Assembly: GCF_004102725.1 (NCBI RefSeq)
Contig: NZ_LHQS01000003.1
Coordinates: 183,889 to 247,888 of the forward strand
DNA: 64,000 nucleotides
Origin: Methanoculleus taiwanensis
GTDB taxonomy: Archaea; Halobacteriota; Methanomicrobia; Methanomicrobiales; Methanoculleaceae
Direction: 5' to 3'
Shown: positions 30,332 to 37,967 of the stretch, in pieces
Position numbering within the stretch: position 1 is the first letter of the stretch
How the letters are laid out: every line of letters starts with the position of its first letter
Made by a program: the position numbers and the translations under genes
The notes under the pieces: generated by a model
Database searches by the model: none
What the model saw: only the letters and a program-made list of their open reading frames with translations
Told to the model about the DNA's origin: nothing

Positions 30332-30751
30332 TTATCCTAACCGCCGTCGGGCAAGGTCGAAAGCCTGGCAGGCCAGCCGGGTGCAGAACGCCGCTTCCTC
30401 TTCGCAGACAAGCGATCCGCTGTACTGAACGTTGTGTCTGGCGATCCGCAGTTTGTCGAAAGCGTTCAGCAGATCTGCAACTTCAGGGTCGTCACCTGCC
30501 GCATACCGCACTGCAGTAACCAGACAGGCGTGGCTCCGTTCGACGTAGCCTGCGGCATACAGAAACGCCCGGACGCTATGGAACGCGCTGTTGTACGCAG
30601 CGAGGTGAGCCATCTCGTACTCTTCGATCACCACGTTCTTCTCCGCAGCCCGCAGGAACCGTGCCGCGGATTCGAGTGACCCGGGGACACGCTCCTGTGC
30701 CCCGGGAGCGGAGCGGATGAGACCCCTGTCGAGGCACTCCTTCCACCTCAT
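30332..30751 (-). CDS. HEPN-domain protein, putative toxin of MNT/HEPN pair
   Basis: About 139 residues, helical. The HEPN signature is in the C-terminal half (KLRIARHNVQYSG, ~113-125), an Arg-x-x-x-His type motif with a Tyr, plus AYNSAFHSVRAFLYAAGYVERSHACL (~55-80). HEPN proteins cut RNA or are controlled by partner nucleotidyltransferases. Its ATG overlaps the MNT stop by four bases (ATGA), so the two are co-translated. A classical type VII pair (MNT antitoxin, HEPN toxin) is the best reading. Confidence 0.8.
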   Translation of the reverse strand: MRWKECLDRGLIRSAPGAQERVPGSLESAARFLRAAEKNVVIEEYEMAHLAAYNSAFHSVRAFLYAAGYVERSHACLVTAVRYAAGDDPEVADLLNAFDKLRIARHNVQYSGSLVCEEEAAFCTRLACQAFDLARRRLG

Positions 30752-31293
30752 AACAGAACTCCCCGGACGAGCACGTGATTCTTCAGAACGCTGGCAACGA
30801 ACGGGTCGCCCTCCGCTTTCATCTGCTCCCACCGGTAGTAGGGGACTGCCGTCACCTGCACCTCGCGGCCGGTCTCCTGTTCCAGTGCCGATACCCGGCT
30901 CAGGTCGACCTGACTTCCGTCGCCGATGACCAGGATATCGATGTCGCTCTGCTCATCGAAGGTTCCTGCCGAAGTGCTTCCGTAGATCGCGACCGCGATG
31001 CTCCCGGGCGCGATCTCTTCGATTCCGGCCTCCGCGAGGAGAAGAACCATGCAGGCCCTTTTCAGTTCCCGGGCGACGAAGGAGTCGTTGTCAAGGGAGA
31101 GGAGTTTTGCTGTGCCGAGGCGGGTGACGGTGAGCAGTCCGTCCCGCTCGAAGGTATCGGCATACGACGTAACGCTCCCGGGGCTGACGCCTATCTCCCT
31201 GGCGAGCCGGTTGATGTGGATCTCGCCTGTGGGGTGAGTGAGGAACCAGGCGAGGATCCGAAACCCGACGAACTTCTGGAACTCCTTGATCAT
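30748..31293 (-). CDS. HTH plus MNT nucleotidyltransferase, putative antitoxin
   Basis: About 181 residues. A winged helix occupies ~1-75 (INRLAREIGVSPGSVTSYADTFERDGLL). The nucleotidyltransferase domain follows (~85-180), with the catalytic pattern GSTSAGTFDEQSDIDILVIG (GSxxxG ... SDIDIL). MNT enzymes add AMP to their HEPN toxin and silence it. The HTH suggests autoregulation at the palindrome just upstream. The genes are MNT then HEPN, overlapping. Confidence 0.85.
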   Translation of the reverse strand: MIKEFQKFVGFRILAWFLTHPTGEIHINRLAREIGVSPGSVTSYADTFERDGLLTVTRLGTAKLLSLDNDSFVARELKRACMVLLLAEAGIEEIAPGSIAVAIYGSTSAGTFDEQSDIDILVIGDGSQVDLSRVSALEQETGREVQVTAVPYYRWEQMKAEGDPFVASVLKNHVLVRGVLL

Positions 31294-31548: not shown

Positions 31549-32478
31549 TTAATGGATCTTTCTGGCAACAAATGAATGGTATTTTACGGTTCGCTTTAAA
31601 CTGAAATTGGATGCCAACTGGTGCCCTCTGTATATATCGGGAGCGATTTCTTTGGGTGCTCCAGTTGATGGACTCTTTATTACTTCCCCTTCAGGACTCG
31701 CTCTGATGTACCTGCAAATCCTGTTGAAACTCCCTCGTACGTCAATTATCTCAGATGGATTTGATAGCAGAGGAATATCAAACAAAGGTACATCAATCCC
31801 AATCAAAATCGAGCCCTCCTTAATTTTATCAAAAAATTGGCACATGAAATTAACGTACTGATCCACACTTTGGAAGGAATACATCAAATCTGTTGCGCAG
31901 TTTTGCATGACATGCACATCCGAATTTTGTAATAACTTCACTGCACTAGCGCTGCCAAAAATACTTCCAAGGTTTGAGGTCAGTGTATTGCCAGAAATAA
32001 AATATCCTTTCCAATAGTCCGGAACCATATGCTCATATGCGTACGCTCTGAAGTCTTCCCAATTATTATTGTCGACATAATGCGATCTAACCGACTTTAC
32101 TGAAGGATACTTTTTACCAATAAACTTTAACAGCCCTAGTAACTCAGGTTCTGCTCCACCGCCATAGATAGATACATCTAAATTCGTTCTTCCCTTCCAA
32201 CCTAGTTTATCTCCAACGGAATTCTGATTTTCCAACAAAAGTGGAGGGCGTATCGCAGTTAAGAGGACATCCTCAATAGGGTCTATATAGAGAGGATAGT
32301 ATGCCATTAGGTATGCTGCCTGAAAGATAGGGTCACTATAAGCATAAGAAATAAAATCACTTGCAAAGAAGGTTCTCTGCACATATGCGATTTGGGAGCT
32401 CAAATCAGCAGTTAGTTGAGTATTGTATTCGAGGCCCAAGTAATTGATGACATGTCCATACGGATCATGCTGCTCCAT
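31549..32478 (-). CDS. Unknown Rossmann-like protein, island gene A
   Basis: About 309 residues. It shares a clear core with the protein at 33995-35233: AAYLMAYYPLYI (versus TAYMLCYFPSYI), VSIYGGGAEPELLGLL (~103-117; versus VSLYGCGPAPDFLGLL), W-x-D/K-F/W-R, VHVMQNCATDL (~189-198; versus LHIFQNCATEL), and IKEGSILIGID. The glycine loop plus following strands look like a SAM-binding Rossmann fold, but this is inference. The base use is AT-rich, unlike neighbours. It has its own TATA box, ~27 bp upstream of the ATG. It lacks the N-terminal domain of its paralogue. Confidence 0.7.
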   Translation of the reverse strand: MEQHDPYGHVINYLGLEYNTQLTADLSSQIAYVQRTFFASDFISYAYSDPIFQAAYLMAYYPLYIDPIEDVLLTAIRPPLLLENQNSVGDKLGWKGRTNLDVSIYGGGAEPELLGLLKFIGKKYPSVKSVRSHYVDNNNWEDFRAYAYEHMVPDYWKGYFISGNTLTSNLGSIFGSASAVKLLQNSDVHVMQNCATDLMYSFQSVDQYVNFMCQFFDKIKEGSILIGIDVPLFDIPLLSNPSEIIDVRGSFNRICRYIRASPEGEVIKSPSTGAPKEIAPDIYRGHQLASNFSLKRTVKYHSFVARKIH

Positions 32479-32501
32479 GTAATCAAATACTAAGTACTAC
32501 A

Positions 32502-32509
32502 CTATAAAC
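32502..32509 (-). promoter_or_regulatory. TATA-like box of island gene A
   Basis: On the minus strand TTTATAGT lies centred ~27 bp upstream of the ATG of gene A, the spacing that gives leaderless archaeal transcripts. No ribosome site precedes the ATG. Confidence 0.4.
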
Positions 32510-32619
32510 AGTAAGGTTTCCTCTTTCCATTTCAAAGATCTGCCTATGAGTGACGACTTATTGTGAATCTATTGGATTAGGATGATTTTTCAGAGGTGGA
32601 TTACCCCCAAAACTTCACA

Positions 32620-32800
32620 TGTGATGACCCATGCCGGGTCGAGCAAGACGTGGCAATGAGGTCCTTAGTACTCAAACCAAAAAGTCAATCTGATTAAGGT
32701 CCGTAAGAGGTTGGAAGCCGTATAATGGCGGCTCACTCCTAATGGTGTTCCAGATTGAGCCAAGACACCTAAATTAAAGCGATTCCATTTGGAACACCCA
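32620..32800. ncRNA. Candidate structured RNA in island gap
   Basis: The 412-bp gap between gene A and the DUF1848 gene has no ORF. It holds several inverted repeats: GACCC/GGGTC (32626-32640), AGCCG/CGGCT (32716-32733), and a perfect 9-bp pair GGTGTTCCA (32744-32752) with TGGAACACC (32790-32798). This stretch is visibly richer in G+C than its AT-rich surroundings. It may be a non-coding RNA or a decayed element; the strand is unknown and no family is recognised. Confidence 0.35.
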
Positions 32801-32890
32801 ATCGATTGTTATAATGCGCCTGACCGTATTTCTTGTTGTAGGCGGCCCCTAGGAATCCGTGGCTACTCTCTTGGAAAAATGGGCAAGTTA

Positions 32891-33961
32891 TTAAGAGTCC
32901 TTATTGAAACGGTTCAATGTGGGATTTTTTCTCGCTTTGGCAACAATTTTTTCAATCCATCTTTCATCGGCGTTTATTGTTGGAGATGATGGGTTTTCTT
33001 TATGCTTCGTAAAGTTATTCTCTACAGTCTTTTGTGAGTGATTTGCATAGCAGTACATACATTTATGCATACAGGTATTATACTGACCAATATCCTTACT
33101 TGCAATGCAACCACAATATTTTCGCTGTCCTGTATCCTTAACATTACTCGTCTTTAAGAACTCAATTAGCTTTAGATCATCTGGAAAGAGCCTCTTCATT
33201 AGACATCCATCAACACATTTGTTGTGCTCGATGCCCATGGCCCGCAGGTCGATAGATTCACAACATGTAGATACCGAAAGATTCCATTGCTGATTAAACA
33301 CCATGATTCTATTAGCAATATCACAGATTTCATCACGGGTTAATTCACGATAATCAGAGAAACCCTCTCTATCTAAGTTGCCCTTTACCTTTTTGTAACA
33401 GTTAATATCAGCGAAACTGATGACTAACTTTTGAGTATATGGAGCAACTTCATCCCCTATACGCTTAATCTTTCCAGCTAGCTGATCTATAGTTAAGCTT
33501 GGTGAGAGTAATAAAGGATCAAATCTCCAAATGACTTTGTCTTTTCCAATTTTATCAGATAGTTCCTTGAATGTTTCAATCCTCTTCGCTAATGGTGGGA
33601 CATTTGGTTCTAGTTTCTCTTCTTCGTAATCATTGAGCGTGAATTGGAAATAGTAATTAATTCCCATTCTGCTTATTTCACCTAAATATTTCATCAGTGG
33701 CCGGGGATTTTTTGTCCAAAAGACTATCATTCGAGTTTTTTGGAACGAAATAACTTGAGGCTCCTGATTAAATGGATTTATCCAGACAGTGTAGCCTTCT
33801 AATAGTCTCCGCATAAACCATTCTGGATAGAATGCTGGAATATCCGTTGATCTACTAGCAGAGATAACTTGTGGTGCTATCGCATCAATTTCAACCTCTT
33901 TTTCGAGTAAATTGTCGAAGTTCAACCGCAACTTAATAGTATCCCAACTTTTAAATGCCAT
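32891..33961 (-). CDS. DUF1848 protein, island gene
   Basis: About 356 residues. N-terminal VISASRSTDIPAFYPEWFMRRL (~32-52) is the DUF1848 hallmark, followed by a barrel-like middle (IVFWTKNPRPLM; KVIWRFDPLLLSPS). Cysteines cluster late: CC (233-234), C249 and C253, C283 and C285, and a CxxxCxxC triplet CMHKCMYC (C297, C301, C304). The triplet is like a radical SAM site, though near the C-terminus. DUF1848 is of unknown function; an Fe-S enzyme role is inferred. It follows the gene at 33995-35233 by 33 bp, so they form an operon. Confidence 0.85.
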   Translation of the reverse strand: MAFKSWDTIKLRLNFDNLLEKEVEIDAIAPQVISASRSTDIPAFYPEWFMRRLLEGYTVWINPFNQEPQVISFQKTRMIVFWTKNPRPLMKYLGEISRMGINYYFQFTLNDYEEEKLEPNVPPLAKRIETFKELSDKIGKDKVIWRFDPLLLSPSLTIDQLAGKIKRIGDEVAPYTQKLVISFADINCYKKVKGNLDREGFSDYRELTRDEICDIANRIMVFNQQWNLSVSTCCESIDLRAMGIEHNKCVDGCLMKRLFPDDLKLIEFLKTSNVKDTGQRKYCGCIASKDIGQYNTCMHKCMYCYANHSQKTVENNFTKHKENPSSPTINADERWIEKIVAKARKNPTLNRFNKDS

Positions 33962-33994
33962 TGTATCGTAGACCTTTCAGCATTATTGTCCATA

Positions 33995-35233
33995 TTAACA
34001 CTTTTTAGCAATACAGTAACTGAAACCGACCCTTTTTCGGGGTTCTTTTCGGGCTTCTCTGTACCACCCGTCTATTACGCTGTTAACTTCAGGATGCCTA
34101 ATAACTTCTGGACTATACTCGTCTGCATTATACTTGACATCGAGAAGAACTATGTCATTCATTTCTAAGAGTTTCTTCTTTAATTTGAGGAGAATCTTAA
34201 AAGAGTCACCTTTCCCAATAAAATCATTAATGAGAATAATGCTACCAGGTTTCATTACTTCAATAAAGTTTAGAAAGATTGCTAAAACACTATCGACCCT
34301 TCTAGTTGCTTGAAATAGTTCCGTTGCACAATTTTGGAAGATATGAAGATTTGAATCCATTACGGGATTGAAAGACTTTAAATACTCAACCCTATCGCAC
34401 TCAAGTAAATTAAAAGAACAGTGGTGAGGGTTAATACTGATTCCATCACAGTAATTTTGCGCTAGTTCTCCAATGCAAAAATCCCTCCACTTTTCCCATC
34501 CACCTCTCTCGAAAAAATAAGGATCGATAGTGGACACTTCCCCTCGGAAATGTCTGTTTATGTATGCGAGAAGTCCAAGAAAATCTGGAGCTGGACCACA
34601 ACCGTAAAGGCTAACCATTAAGTGCCCTTCGAACACATCACGAAGTTGCTCAAGGTCAACGAAACTCAATGTTTGAAAGACGTTTTCTATATACGACGGG
34701 AAATAGCACAGCATATAGGCTGTTTGTATATCTAGATCATCATAATTAATATTAGAGAGATTTCCTTCGCGGTAACCTGAGATTAACTTAATCGCTGCCT
34801 TCCGATATACTTCAAGCTGGCTCCGAATATCTATACTACTCCCACTGATCGACAGATATCGGCATAGAGCTGAGTAGTAATCATGACGAGGCATATTGTT
34901 CGTGGAATCGCGCTCTTCAATAATTTGACTTATGGGTTTTTGTGCTGAATTATCAATGACAGCTTTAACGAGGCGTATCGGAGTAGAGTAGCTTGTTACC
35001 TCCTCACCGCAATAAACGTCCAAATATAGAGCTCCACCATTGGACGACAAATACATCGTTCCAATCTCCTCTCGCCTATTATTAAATATAGACTCCTCAA
35101 GCGAAGAGCCAGCTATAACCGCCCGTACACTATCAAGTGGAATGACTATCACTAAATTCTCAACATTGAGAATATCAATTTGGAGTTCAGTGGGACGTTT
35201 GTGGATCCAGCCGATATTACTGACGAACTTCAT
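33995..35233 (-). CDS. Unknown Rossmann-like protein with N-terminal domain, island gene B
   Basis: About 412 residues. The C-terminal ~245 residues (from ~165) are homologous to gene A: TAYMLCYFPSYI, SLYGCGPAPDFLGLLAYI (~208-225), GGWEKWRDF, HIFQNCATEL (~297-306), MKPGSIILIND, and a KRVGFSYCIAKK tail. The N-terminal ~130 residues are a separate mixed domain not seen in A. No known family is recognised; a SAM-type methyltransferase is a guess. First gene of the operon with DUF1848; a TATA box ~28 bp upstream of its ATG suggests leaderless translation. Confidence 0.75.
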   Translation of the reverse strand: MKFVSNIGWIHKRPTELQIDILNVENLVIVIPLDSVRAVIAGSSLEESIFNNRREEIGTMYLSSNGGALYLDVYCGEEVTSYSTPIRLVKAVIDNSAQKPISQIIEERDSTNNMPRHDYYSALCRYLSISGSSIDIRSQLEVYRKAAIKLISGYREGNLSNINYDDLDIQTAYMLCYFPSYIENVFQTLSFVDLEQLRDVFEGHLMVSLYGCGPAPDFLGLLAYINRHFRGEVSTIDPYFFERGGWEKWRDFCIGELAQNYCDGISINPHHCSFNLLECDRVEYLKSFNPVMDSNLHIFQNCATELFQATRRVDSVLAIFLNFIEVMKPGSIILINDFIGKGDSFKILLKLKKKLLEMNDIVLLDVKYNADEYSPEVIRHPEVNSVIDGWYREARKEPRKRVGFSYCIAKKC

Positions 35234-35256
35234 TTAACATTGGAATCACACTACAG

Positions 35257-35264
35257 CATATATA
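35257..35264 (-). promoter_or_regulatory. TATA box of island operon
   Basis: On the minus strand TATATATG lies 25-32 bp before the ATG at 35233, with a purine/C-rich BRE-like flank (CGACAGG) just upstream. The spacing predicts a transcript starting at or close to the ATG. Confidence 0.5.
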
Positions 35265-35470
35265 CCTGTCGAAAAATAATTACCCTAGAATATCCTTTAT
35301 CAGCGATTGAAAAATTTGCAGTCGCTTCGCGGCGGGCTCAGACCCATTATCTGGAGTACCTAAGTATCAGTCCAACTAAAAAGCACAGATTATCCAAACA
35401 TAAGACGATTACTAACAGCCACTAATTTCGAACCTTACATGACAAAAGATATGCCACAAAAACCGAAAAT

Positions 35471-35554
35471 GCGAGAGGCCGGATTCGAACCGGCGAACCC
35501 CTACGAGAATAGGCCCTGAACCTATCGCCTTTGACCTGGCTCGGCAACCCTCGC
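35471..35554 (-). tRNA. tRNA-Leu (CAG anticodon)
   Basis: 84 nt on the minus strand fold as a tRNA with acceptor GCGAGGG/CTCTCGC, a D stem GCC/GGC, an anticodon stem ATAGG/CCTAT with loop TTCAGGG (anticodon CAG), a long variable arm, as in Leu tRNAs, and T stem GCCGG/CCGGC with TTCGAAT. CCA is not encoded. No intron is seen. The AT-rich island lies on its 3' side. Confidence 0.92.
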
Positions 35555-37412: not shown

Positions 37413-37967
37413 ATGGATGAAAAGGGATACGAGTCACTGAAAATCGAGAACATCGTAGCCTCCGGTGTTATTGCTGGCTCAATAGACCTCGCGACCGTTT
37501 CCGAAAAAATAAAAAACTGCGAGCTGAACACCAAGAGGTTCCCGGGCGCCGTCTACCGGATCGAGAATCCCAAGATAGCATCCCTGATCTTCTCATCCGG
37601 CAAAGTCGTGCTCACCGGTATTCGGAACAAGGAAGACCTGCACACGGGACTCAATATCATCATCGAATCTCTGAAGGAGGCCGGCGTCGACGCCTTCGAC
37701 GAGCCGCAGGTCGCGATCACGAATATCGTCTGCTCGTACGATATGGGGAAGTACATCAACCTCAATAAAGTCGTCATCACCTTAAACCTCGAGAATATCG
37801 AGTATGAACCCGAACAGTTCCCGGGACTCGTATACCGCATCGAAAACCCGAAGATCGTGGCCCTCCTCTTCAGCTCCGGCAAGATCATCCTGACCGGCGG
37901 AAAGAATATGGACGATATCAAGCAGGGACTCGACTTCCTCGAGCAGCGCCTCGAGAGTATCCTCTAA
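37413..37967 (+). CDS. tbp: TATA-box-binding protein
   Basis: About 184 residues built of two direct repeats, each with the F-P-G-x-V-Y-R-I-E-N-P-K signature (~45-57 and ~138-150) and the L-F-S-S-G-K strand. These make the saddle that bends promoter DNA. It is the general transcription factor with TFB, binding TATA boxes for RNA polymerase. The adjacent intergenic A/T-rich block carries its own promoter. It is divergent from the acyl-CoA synthetase and convergent with the Lhr-type helicase. Confidence 0.95.
   Translation: MDEKGYESLKIENIVASGVIAGSIDLATVSEKIKNCELNTKRFPGAVYRIENPKIASLIFSSGKVVLTGIRNKEDLHTGLNIIIESLKEAGVDAFDEPQVAITNIVCSYDMGKYINLNKVVITLNLENIEYEPEQFPGLVYRIENPKIVALLFSSGKIILTGGKNMDDIKQGLDFLEQRLESIL

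Follow-up and report, generated by a model that had tools for sequence, protein, structure and literature searches.

An AT-rich island beside tRNA-Leu of Methanoculleus taiwanensis carries a recurring pair of a methyltransferase-like protein and DUF1848, a candidate mobile base-modification cassette

Three low-G+C genes lying next to a tRNA-Leu gene in the otherwise G+C-rich DNA of the methanogen Methanoculleus taiwanensis raise the question of whether they form a functional unit and, if so, what this unit does. The genes, all on the minus strand, occupy positions 31549-35233 of the 64,000-nucleotide stretch of contig NZ_LHQS01000003.1 that we analyzed (hereafter the window) and are flanked by a HEPN/MNT pair and tRNA-Leu(CAG). 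A reading of the letters alone (the original prediction) had described this layout, with two paralogous proteins, here called A and C, around a DUF1848 protein, and the open reading frames (ORFs) bore it out. It had also proposed a horizontal origin and a role in defense, modification or small-molecule metabolism. The analysis described below indicates that homologs of A and C nearly always adjoin either DUF1848 or an AlkB-type dioxygenase, which points, tentatively, to a mobile base-modification cassette.

By predicted fold, A and C are class I S-adenosylmethionine (SAM) methyltransferases. They are homologous to each other (BLASTP, 25% over 236 amino acids, E 1.7e-20), and both carry the YG[CG]G and QNCAT[ED]L motifs that the original prediction had singled out. 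The Cys of the latter motif is not universal in the family, however, and was rejected as a family-wide catalytic nucleophile: distant members have QNY, QNL or NFL, and the residue is a clade feature. The family alignment also displays a GxGPxPE motif. No PADLOC, Pfam or NCBIfam model recognized A or C above its cut-off, and searches of solved structures by sequence, either with the methyltransferase family or with DUF1848, gave no credible match. The fold became apparent from an AlphaFold model of A built on a 20-sequence alignment, in which the N-terminal ~110 amino acids were poorly modeled and the core, starting near residue 111, was confident (pLDDT 85-97 for most blocks) and had the strand and helix order of a class I methyltransferase. 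When this model was compared with the PDB using Foldseek, the top 50 matches were all methyltransferases (best E 1.3e-7, prob 1.00), with the small-molecule enzymes NNMT and PSPP methyltransferase as the closest folds, and a viral structure library agreed. Other members of the family bear tetratricopeptide (TPR) repeats or coiled coils at the N or C terminus. Its best Pfam relative is Methyltransf_34 (PF11312), whose cut-off of 26 bits is reached by no member; scores are 24.3 bits at most, the closest ones belonging to distant cyanobacterial proteins, and gene C scores 15 bits. Yeast Bmt6 is a member of PF11312.

Homologs of A and C were gathered by sequence alone, with their neighbors disregarded, which yielded 43 non-redundant loci (five from archaea, four from Clostridium-type bacteria and 34 from cyanobacteria). 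In 40 of them the methyltransferase has a partner gene as a neighbor, namely an intact AlkB gene in 28 loci and DUF1848 in 16, with both present in four, all cyanobacterial. The three exceptions comprise a Clostridium contig cut in a helicase gene, with an apparent continuation on a second contig that has DUF1848 directly downstream (L149/L150), a pseudogene lying where its contig ends (L043), and a TPR-fused copy that is truncated (L141). Even members that are only remotely related (E 1e-10 to 1e-19; L142-L144) still adjoin AlkB, in reversed order, and the adjacency spans the three lineages with varying gene orders and strands. Moreover, methyltransferase and DUF1848 distances correlate over the 16 pairs (Mantel r 0.91; p 6e-4 in within-lineage shuffles) as well as in cyanobacteria alone (r 0.83, p 0.001), with the methyltransferase diverging much faster than DUF1848 (0.72-0.80 versus 0.44-0.53 among archaea). 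The scatter without co-occurrence that had been named as a refuting outcome was not found, and the modification role is strengthened both by the methyltransferase fold of A and C and by the recurrence of the methyltransferase-DUF1848 pair. As to the idea that the whole trio recurs as a unit near defense genes, A, DUF1848 and C were not met together elsewhere, and it is their core pair that recurs. The HEPN/MNT genes were rejected as a part of the unit, as they have a native-like G+C content and recur without the island, while the trio is found nowhere else. The methyltransferase family is rare and patchy, being present in 3 of 394 genomes of the phylum Halobacteriota, 13 of 291 cyanobacteria and 4 of 399 genomes of the Clostridium phylum.

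The DUF1848 protein of the island matches PF08902 with 319 bits (cut-off 30.5), and its richness in Cys, remarked upon in the original prediction, is a conserved trait. Seven Cys are invariant among 30 aligned homologs: three in a CxxxCxYCYA segment near the C terminus, the remaining four being C233, C249, C283 and C285. The CxxxCxxC motif, which is of the radical SAM cluster type, is kept in 17 of 17 methyltransferase-linked DUF1848 proteins, and its region gives a local profile match to a radical SAM family. DUF1848 is probably a radical-SAM-like Fe-S enzyme, the motif being observed and the chemistry being what we infer from it. Its AlphaFold model weakly matches TIM-barrel-like enzymes; among these, Foldseek aligned part of it with PFL-activase and Elp3, over ~160-180 columns and with a prob of 0.97-0.98 at an E of only 0.03-0.05. 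Such weak barrel matches would fit a radical SAM barrel so rearranged that its cluster loop lies at the C terminus. A circular permutation was tried and dropped, because the permuted profile did no better than the unpermuted one (48.8 versus 48.6); it aligned 154 columns of DUF1848 in a plausible register (TKN/TKS, LEP...R), and the score of its N part, devoid of the Cys motif, was reached by 9 of 200 shuffles and is not significant. We also rejected an identity with radical SAM mobile pair protein A (TIGR04471), which had no match in genome G000 and elsewhere scored far below cut-off and off the DUF1848 genes. At one locus (L170:4813-6784), DUF1848 overlaps a gene for radical SAM mobile pair protein B (TIGR04470). 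The family is also encoded on about 36 viral contigs (L052-L088), in one of which (L052) it lies just upstream of an SmpB-like gene.

Clues to the substrate came from stand-alone copies of DUF1848, for which neighbors of representatives were checked with curated models. In related methanogens such copies directly follow ArgS-TYW1-SepRS at five loci (L158-L161, L168) and TYW1-SepRS at another (L155, as judged from the order of the genes and the starts of their sequences), whereas at two more (L163, 1401-5762; L164, 4860-9291) they come after KsgA in a conserved Pus10-L21e-RpoF-DUF655-KsgA block. The adjacency to SepRS in several methanogen genera hints at a tRNA role for DUF1848, and it is mainly on account of these RNA genes beside stand-alone copies that we prefer RNA as the substrate.

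The other partner, AlkB, is present at most cyanobacterial loci. The catalytic HxD...H residues and RxNxTFR are kept in 30 of 30 AlkB partners, which score over the cut-off of PF13532. This family is absent from all nine archaeal and Clostridium-type, that is anaerobic, carriers of the methyltransferase, and all nine have DUF1848, a distribution that is no more than suggestive of an O2-independent DUF1848 taking the place of O2-dependent AlkB in anaerobes.

Several copies lie in defense settings. At L148, the order WYL, WYL, methyltransferase, CARF, DUF1848, Csx1, Cas10, RAMP puts the pair inside a type III CRISPR operon, a divergent WYL pair stands beside the methyltransferase at L146 and L147, and at L044 a divergent CARF gene is found upstream. 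The Clostridium locus L042/L149 contains a DRT2 reverse transcriptase, the methyltransferase and a DruE-like helicase, L006 a DndD/PbeC-type ATPase and a UvrD-like helicase (the same helicase type recurring at L007), and at L009 and L012 the methyltransferase is located beside Cas10-Cas1-Cas2. Copies on the Synechocystis plasmids pSYSA, a defense plasmid, and pSYLA adjoin type III-B adaptation genes. Of the proposed defense role, the association thus stood for these copies but did not prove to be universal.

The composition of the island sets it apart from its surroundings. Its G+C content is 39.3%, as against 61.0% for the remainder of the window, and 260 windows of equal length elsewhere average 61.2% (standard deviation 2.9, minimum 53.7%); at third codon positions the island genes have a G+C fraction of 0.35-0.39, in line with the A/T-rich third positions noted before. 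A query made of the tRNA-Leu/acyl-CoA-synthetase flank matched in 40 of 40 searched genomes of Methanoculleaceae, yet homologs of A and C occur in two of these, M. taiwanensis and G012, and are absent from the other 38. DUF1848, present in 62 of 150 genomes of the order, is within the family confined to the same two among the genomes listed. The G012 copies are also AT-rich (37 and 36% G+C in a neighborhood of 60%) and sit at a different genomic place, and gene C is 70% identical to the methyltransferase directly upstream of DUF1848 there. The sole congener examined (G001) is without the island and has other DNA after the same tRNA-Leu, about 40 kb with duplicated tRNA pieces, up to the HEPN/MNT gene, whose homolog (88%) is consequently ~40 kb from tRNA-Leu, compared with ~4 kb in M. 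taiwanensis. The pieces, namely a 44-nt 5' half, a full copy and a degenerate copy of tRNA-Leu, lie within 360 bp (L211:799-1159) at the start of this large insertion. Since one genome has a different large insert with tRNA pieces and the other the island, the interval between tRNA-Leu and HEPN/MNT is an insertion hotspot. On this comparison of sequences, horizontal acquisition holds, given the extreme composition and the fact that both the congener and 38 of the 40 family genomes lack the island. The other refuting outcome, a region that is normally conserved among its relatives, did not come true either. Integration at the tRNA 3' end by attachment-site duplication was also considered for M. 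taiwanensis and discarded, as neither the window nor the genome contains this end of the tRNA a second time; so was a phage origin of the methyltransferase, of which no homolog turned up in the phage records or viral contigs searched.

Leaderless-type promoters had been assigned to all three genes. A and C do have TATA-like boxes (cf. Table 1), and their spacing from the start codon fits leaderless transcripts, as in archaeal genes. DUF1848 has no TATA box of its own, starts 33 nt downstream of A, and probably shares one transcript with it, as far as can be read from the sequence. The gap between DUF1848 and C contains a very weak methyltransferase-like stretch (32704-32799; tblastn, 36% over 33 amino acids, E 0.007), which looks like a remnant but is perhaps a chance match. 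Outside the island, a gene for the TATA-binding protein (TBP) is located at 37413-37967, just past the acyl-CoA synthetase gene.

Table 1. Positions in the window of the island genes, their motifs and promoter elements, and the flanking genes.
Feature	Position	Strand	Evidence or remark
Gene A, class I SAM methyltransferase-like, 412 amino acids	33995..35233	-	ORF, AlphaFold, Foldseek
DUF1848 gene, 356 amino acids	32891..33961	-	PF08902 E 4e-95; PADLOC RTasDUF1848 E 3e-46; AlphaFold pLDDT 92.4
Gene C, also class I methyltransferase-like, 309 amino acids	31549..32478	-	profile match 1e-76; similarity to A
SAM-binding motif I of A, YGCGPAPD	34583..34606	-	alignment columns; loop after first beta strand in model
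Motif after strand 4 of A, QNCATEL	34316..34336	-	alignment
Motif I of C, YGGG	32155..32166	-	sequence
QNCATDL motif of C	31885..31905	-	sequence
CMHKCMYC of DUF1848 (CxxxCxxC, radical-SAM-type cluster motif near C terminus)	33050..33073	-	invariant in 30 homologs
TATA-like box of A, TATATAT	35258..35264	-	28 nt upstream of ATG; read from sequence
TATA-like box of C, TTTATAG	32502..32508	-	27 nt upstream of ATG; read from sequence
Non-coding gap between DUF1848 and C	32479..32890	-	
HEPN/MNT pair	30332-31293		
tRNA-Leu(cag), island flank	35470-35554	-	

What, then, might the island do? The reading that we favor, though tentatively, is that of a mobile, often defense-linked base-modification cassette, in which a methyltransferase is joined by DUF1848 or AlkB acting on its mark. 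Its observed basis is the methyltransferase fold, the recurring module, the swap of partners by lineage, the mobility and some of the settings; from these we infer the RNA substrate, the order of reactions, the equivalence of AlkB and DUF1848 and an antiviral effect. The methyltransferase would methylate a base in RNA, with tRNA or rRNA as a likelier substrate than DNA, and its partner enzyme, an O2-dependent AlkB dioxygenase in most cyanobacteria and an O2-independent DUF1848 in strict anaerobes like this methanogen, would oxidize, extend or remove this mark. This could amount either to a two-step modification with an ALKBH8-like logic (PMC4051686) or to a reversible switch, and the cassette would often be recruited to defense settings and signals (CARF, WYL, type III CRISPR). 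The island would then represent two acquired cassettes beside tRNA-Leu, one whole (A and DUF1848) and one reduced to a lone methyltransferase (C), and its one DUF1848 may serve, or once have served, both A and C. A bolder version appears to us rather unlikely. In it, AlkB and DUF1848 would be interchangeable second enzymes of a mobile immune or stress cassette that writes a base mark on RNA and then oxidizes or erases it; DUF1848 would be the equivalent of AlkB in anaerobes and a radical SAM enzyme of a new, possibly circularly permuted, kind. A number of observations weigh against the favored reading or parts of it: AlkB is generally rare in anaerobes, and its split with DUF1848 could follow lineage, not function; both partners are present together in the four cyanobacteria mentioned above; within archaea, where the methyltransferases are near saturation, methyltransferase and DUF1848 distances do not correlate (r -0.27, five pairs); many cyanobacterial copies are placed amid housekeeping genes with no defense gene near; and neither profile nor fold comparisons assigned DUF1848 to the radical SAM superfamily (14.7 bits for PF04055, cut-off 29.5).

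The same pair of enzymes might also operate like a toxin and its antidote, by analogy with DarT and DarG, the methyltransferase putting a blocking mark on RNA or DNA and AlkB or DUF1848 erasing it. AlkB family enzymes indeed strip Watson-Crick-face methyl marks off DNA and RNA (PMC5304225), Bmt6, a remote relative, is a 3-methyluridine (m3U) methyltransferase of rRNA (PMC5199042), and both the copies on pSYSA and the much faster evolution of the methyltransferase would suit a toxin. We nevertheless find this arrangement unlikely, as gene C has no DUF1848 partner of its own, many loci are chromosomal and stable-looking, and some cyanobacteria possess both erasers. Another explanation dispenses with defense altogether and sees a repair or tRNA-tuning cassette that would reverse base damage or modify a wobble base. 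Stand-alone DUF1848 near TYW1, SepRS, KsgA and Pus10 and the many chromosomal copies free of defense neighbors agree with it, as do the WYL genes, since DNA damage is among the signals that WYL regulators can sense, and the combination of AlkB with a methyltransferase recalls ALKBH8. The patchy, mobile distribution and the repeated defense settings are unlike a housekeeping tRNA function, though, and we hold this explanation to be improbable. The small-molecule pathway of the original prediction, where the methyltransferase and an iron enzyme would act on a metabolite or a peptide, has in our view a slim chance. Natural-product clusters often contain 2-oxoglutarate (2OG) oxygenases and radical SAM enzymes, and the PDB folds nearest to A fit such a role; the AlkB partners, however, belong to a nucleic-acid family (PF13532, with RxNxTFR throughout), the neighbors include helicases, CARF, Cas10 and reverse transcriptase, and no precursor peptide, nonribosomal peptide synthetase (NRPS), polyketide synthase (PKS) or transporter was seen recurring among them. 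Lastly, DUF1848 and the methyltransferase might merely share mobile elements without forming a functional unit. The uniqueness of the trio and the partnerless gene C could be quoted in favor of this, but the nearly constant adjacency over three lineages in different orders and strands, together with the correlated divergence, had already disfavored it, and we regard it as highly improbable.

If the favored reading of a base-modification cassette is true, it would reveal an O2-independent enzyme corresponding to AlkB, along with a new mobile, defense-linked cassette for RNA modification that archaea and bacteria share. DUF1848 is a widespread family without an assigned function, for which its near-constant pairing with the methyltransferase, its occupation of the slot of AlkB and its TYW1, SepRS and KsgA neighbors when alone offer a concrete and testable hypothesis, namely that it performs redox reactions on a base of RNA that carries a modification. 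In the literature searched, the coverage of which left out most subscription journals, DUF1848 was named in no paper, and a search for AlkB, radical SAM, methyltransferase and phage defense in combination found none.

Each part by itself has a known enzyme fold, and DUF1848 already figures as an accessory of defense-associated reverse transcriptase (DRT) systems; for these reasons we class the module with defense- or mobile-element-linked nucleic-acid modification cassettes and not as a wholly new kind. With DRT systems (PADLOC RTasDUF1848) it shares the same DUF1848 family in a defense context, and one Clostridium methyltransferase copy adjoins DRT2, but there is no reverse transcriptase among the island genes, where the partner of DUF1848 is a methyltransferase. 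Methyltransf_34 has a common motif I and D-x-x-x-W layout with the family, whose members all stay below its cut-off. The cyanobacterial AlkB partner comes nearest, among PADLOC models, to the oxygenase part of CARF_2OG from type III CRISPR loci (E 2e-52), from which it differs in not being fused to CARF and in being paired with a methyltransferase. DarTG might share the logic of a base modification undone by a neighboring gene, although its enzymes and chemistry are unrelated. A parallel in composition is eukaryotic wobble-base modification by ALKBH8, which unites AlkB and a methyltransferase (PMC4051686). In the ALKBH8/Trm9 system, too, an AlkB dioxygenase and a class I methyltransferase work together, acting on RNA (which for the cassette is only a presumed substrate), and the precursor is made there by a radical SAM enzyme, Elp3, which we count as a further likeness. 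The cassette differs from it in consisting of separate, mobile and patchily distributed genes, in its methyltransferase, which is remotely Methyltransf_34-like rather than demonstrably of the Trm9 type, and in its archaeal copies, which have DUF1848 and lack AlkB.

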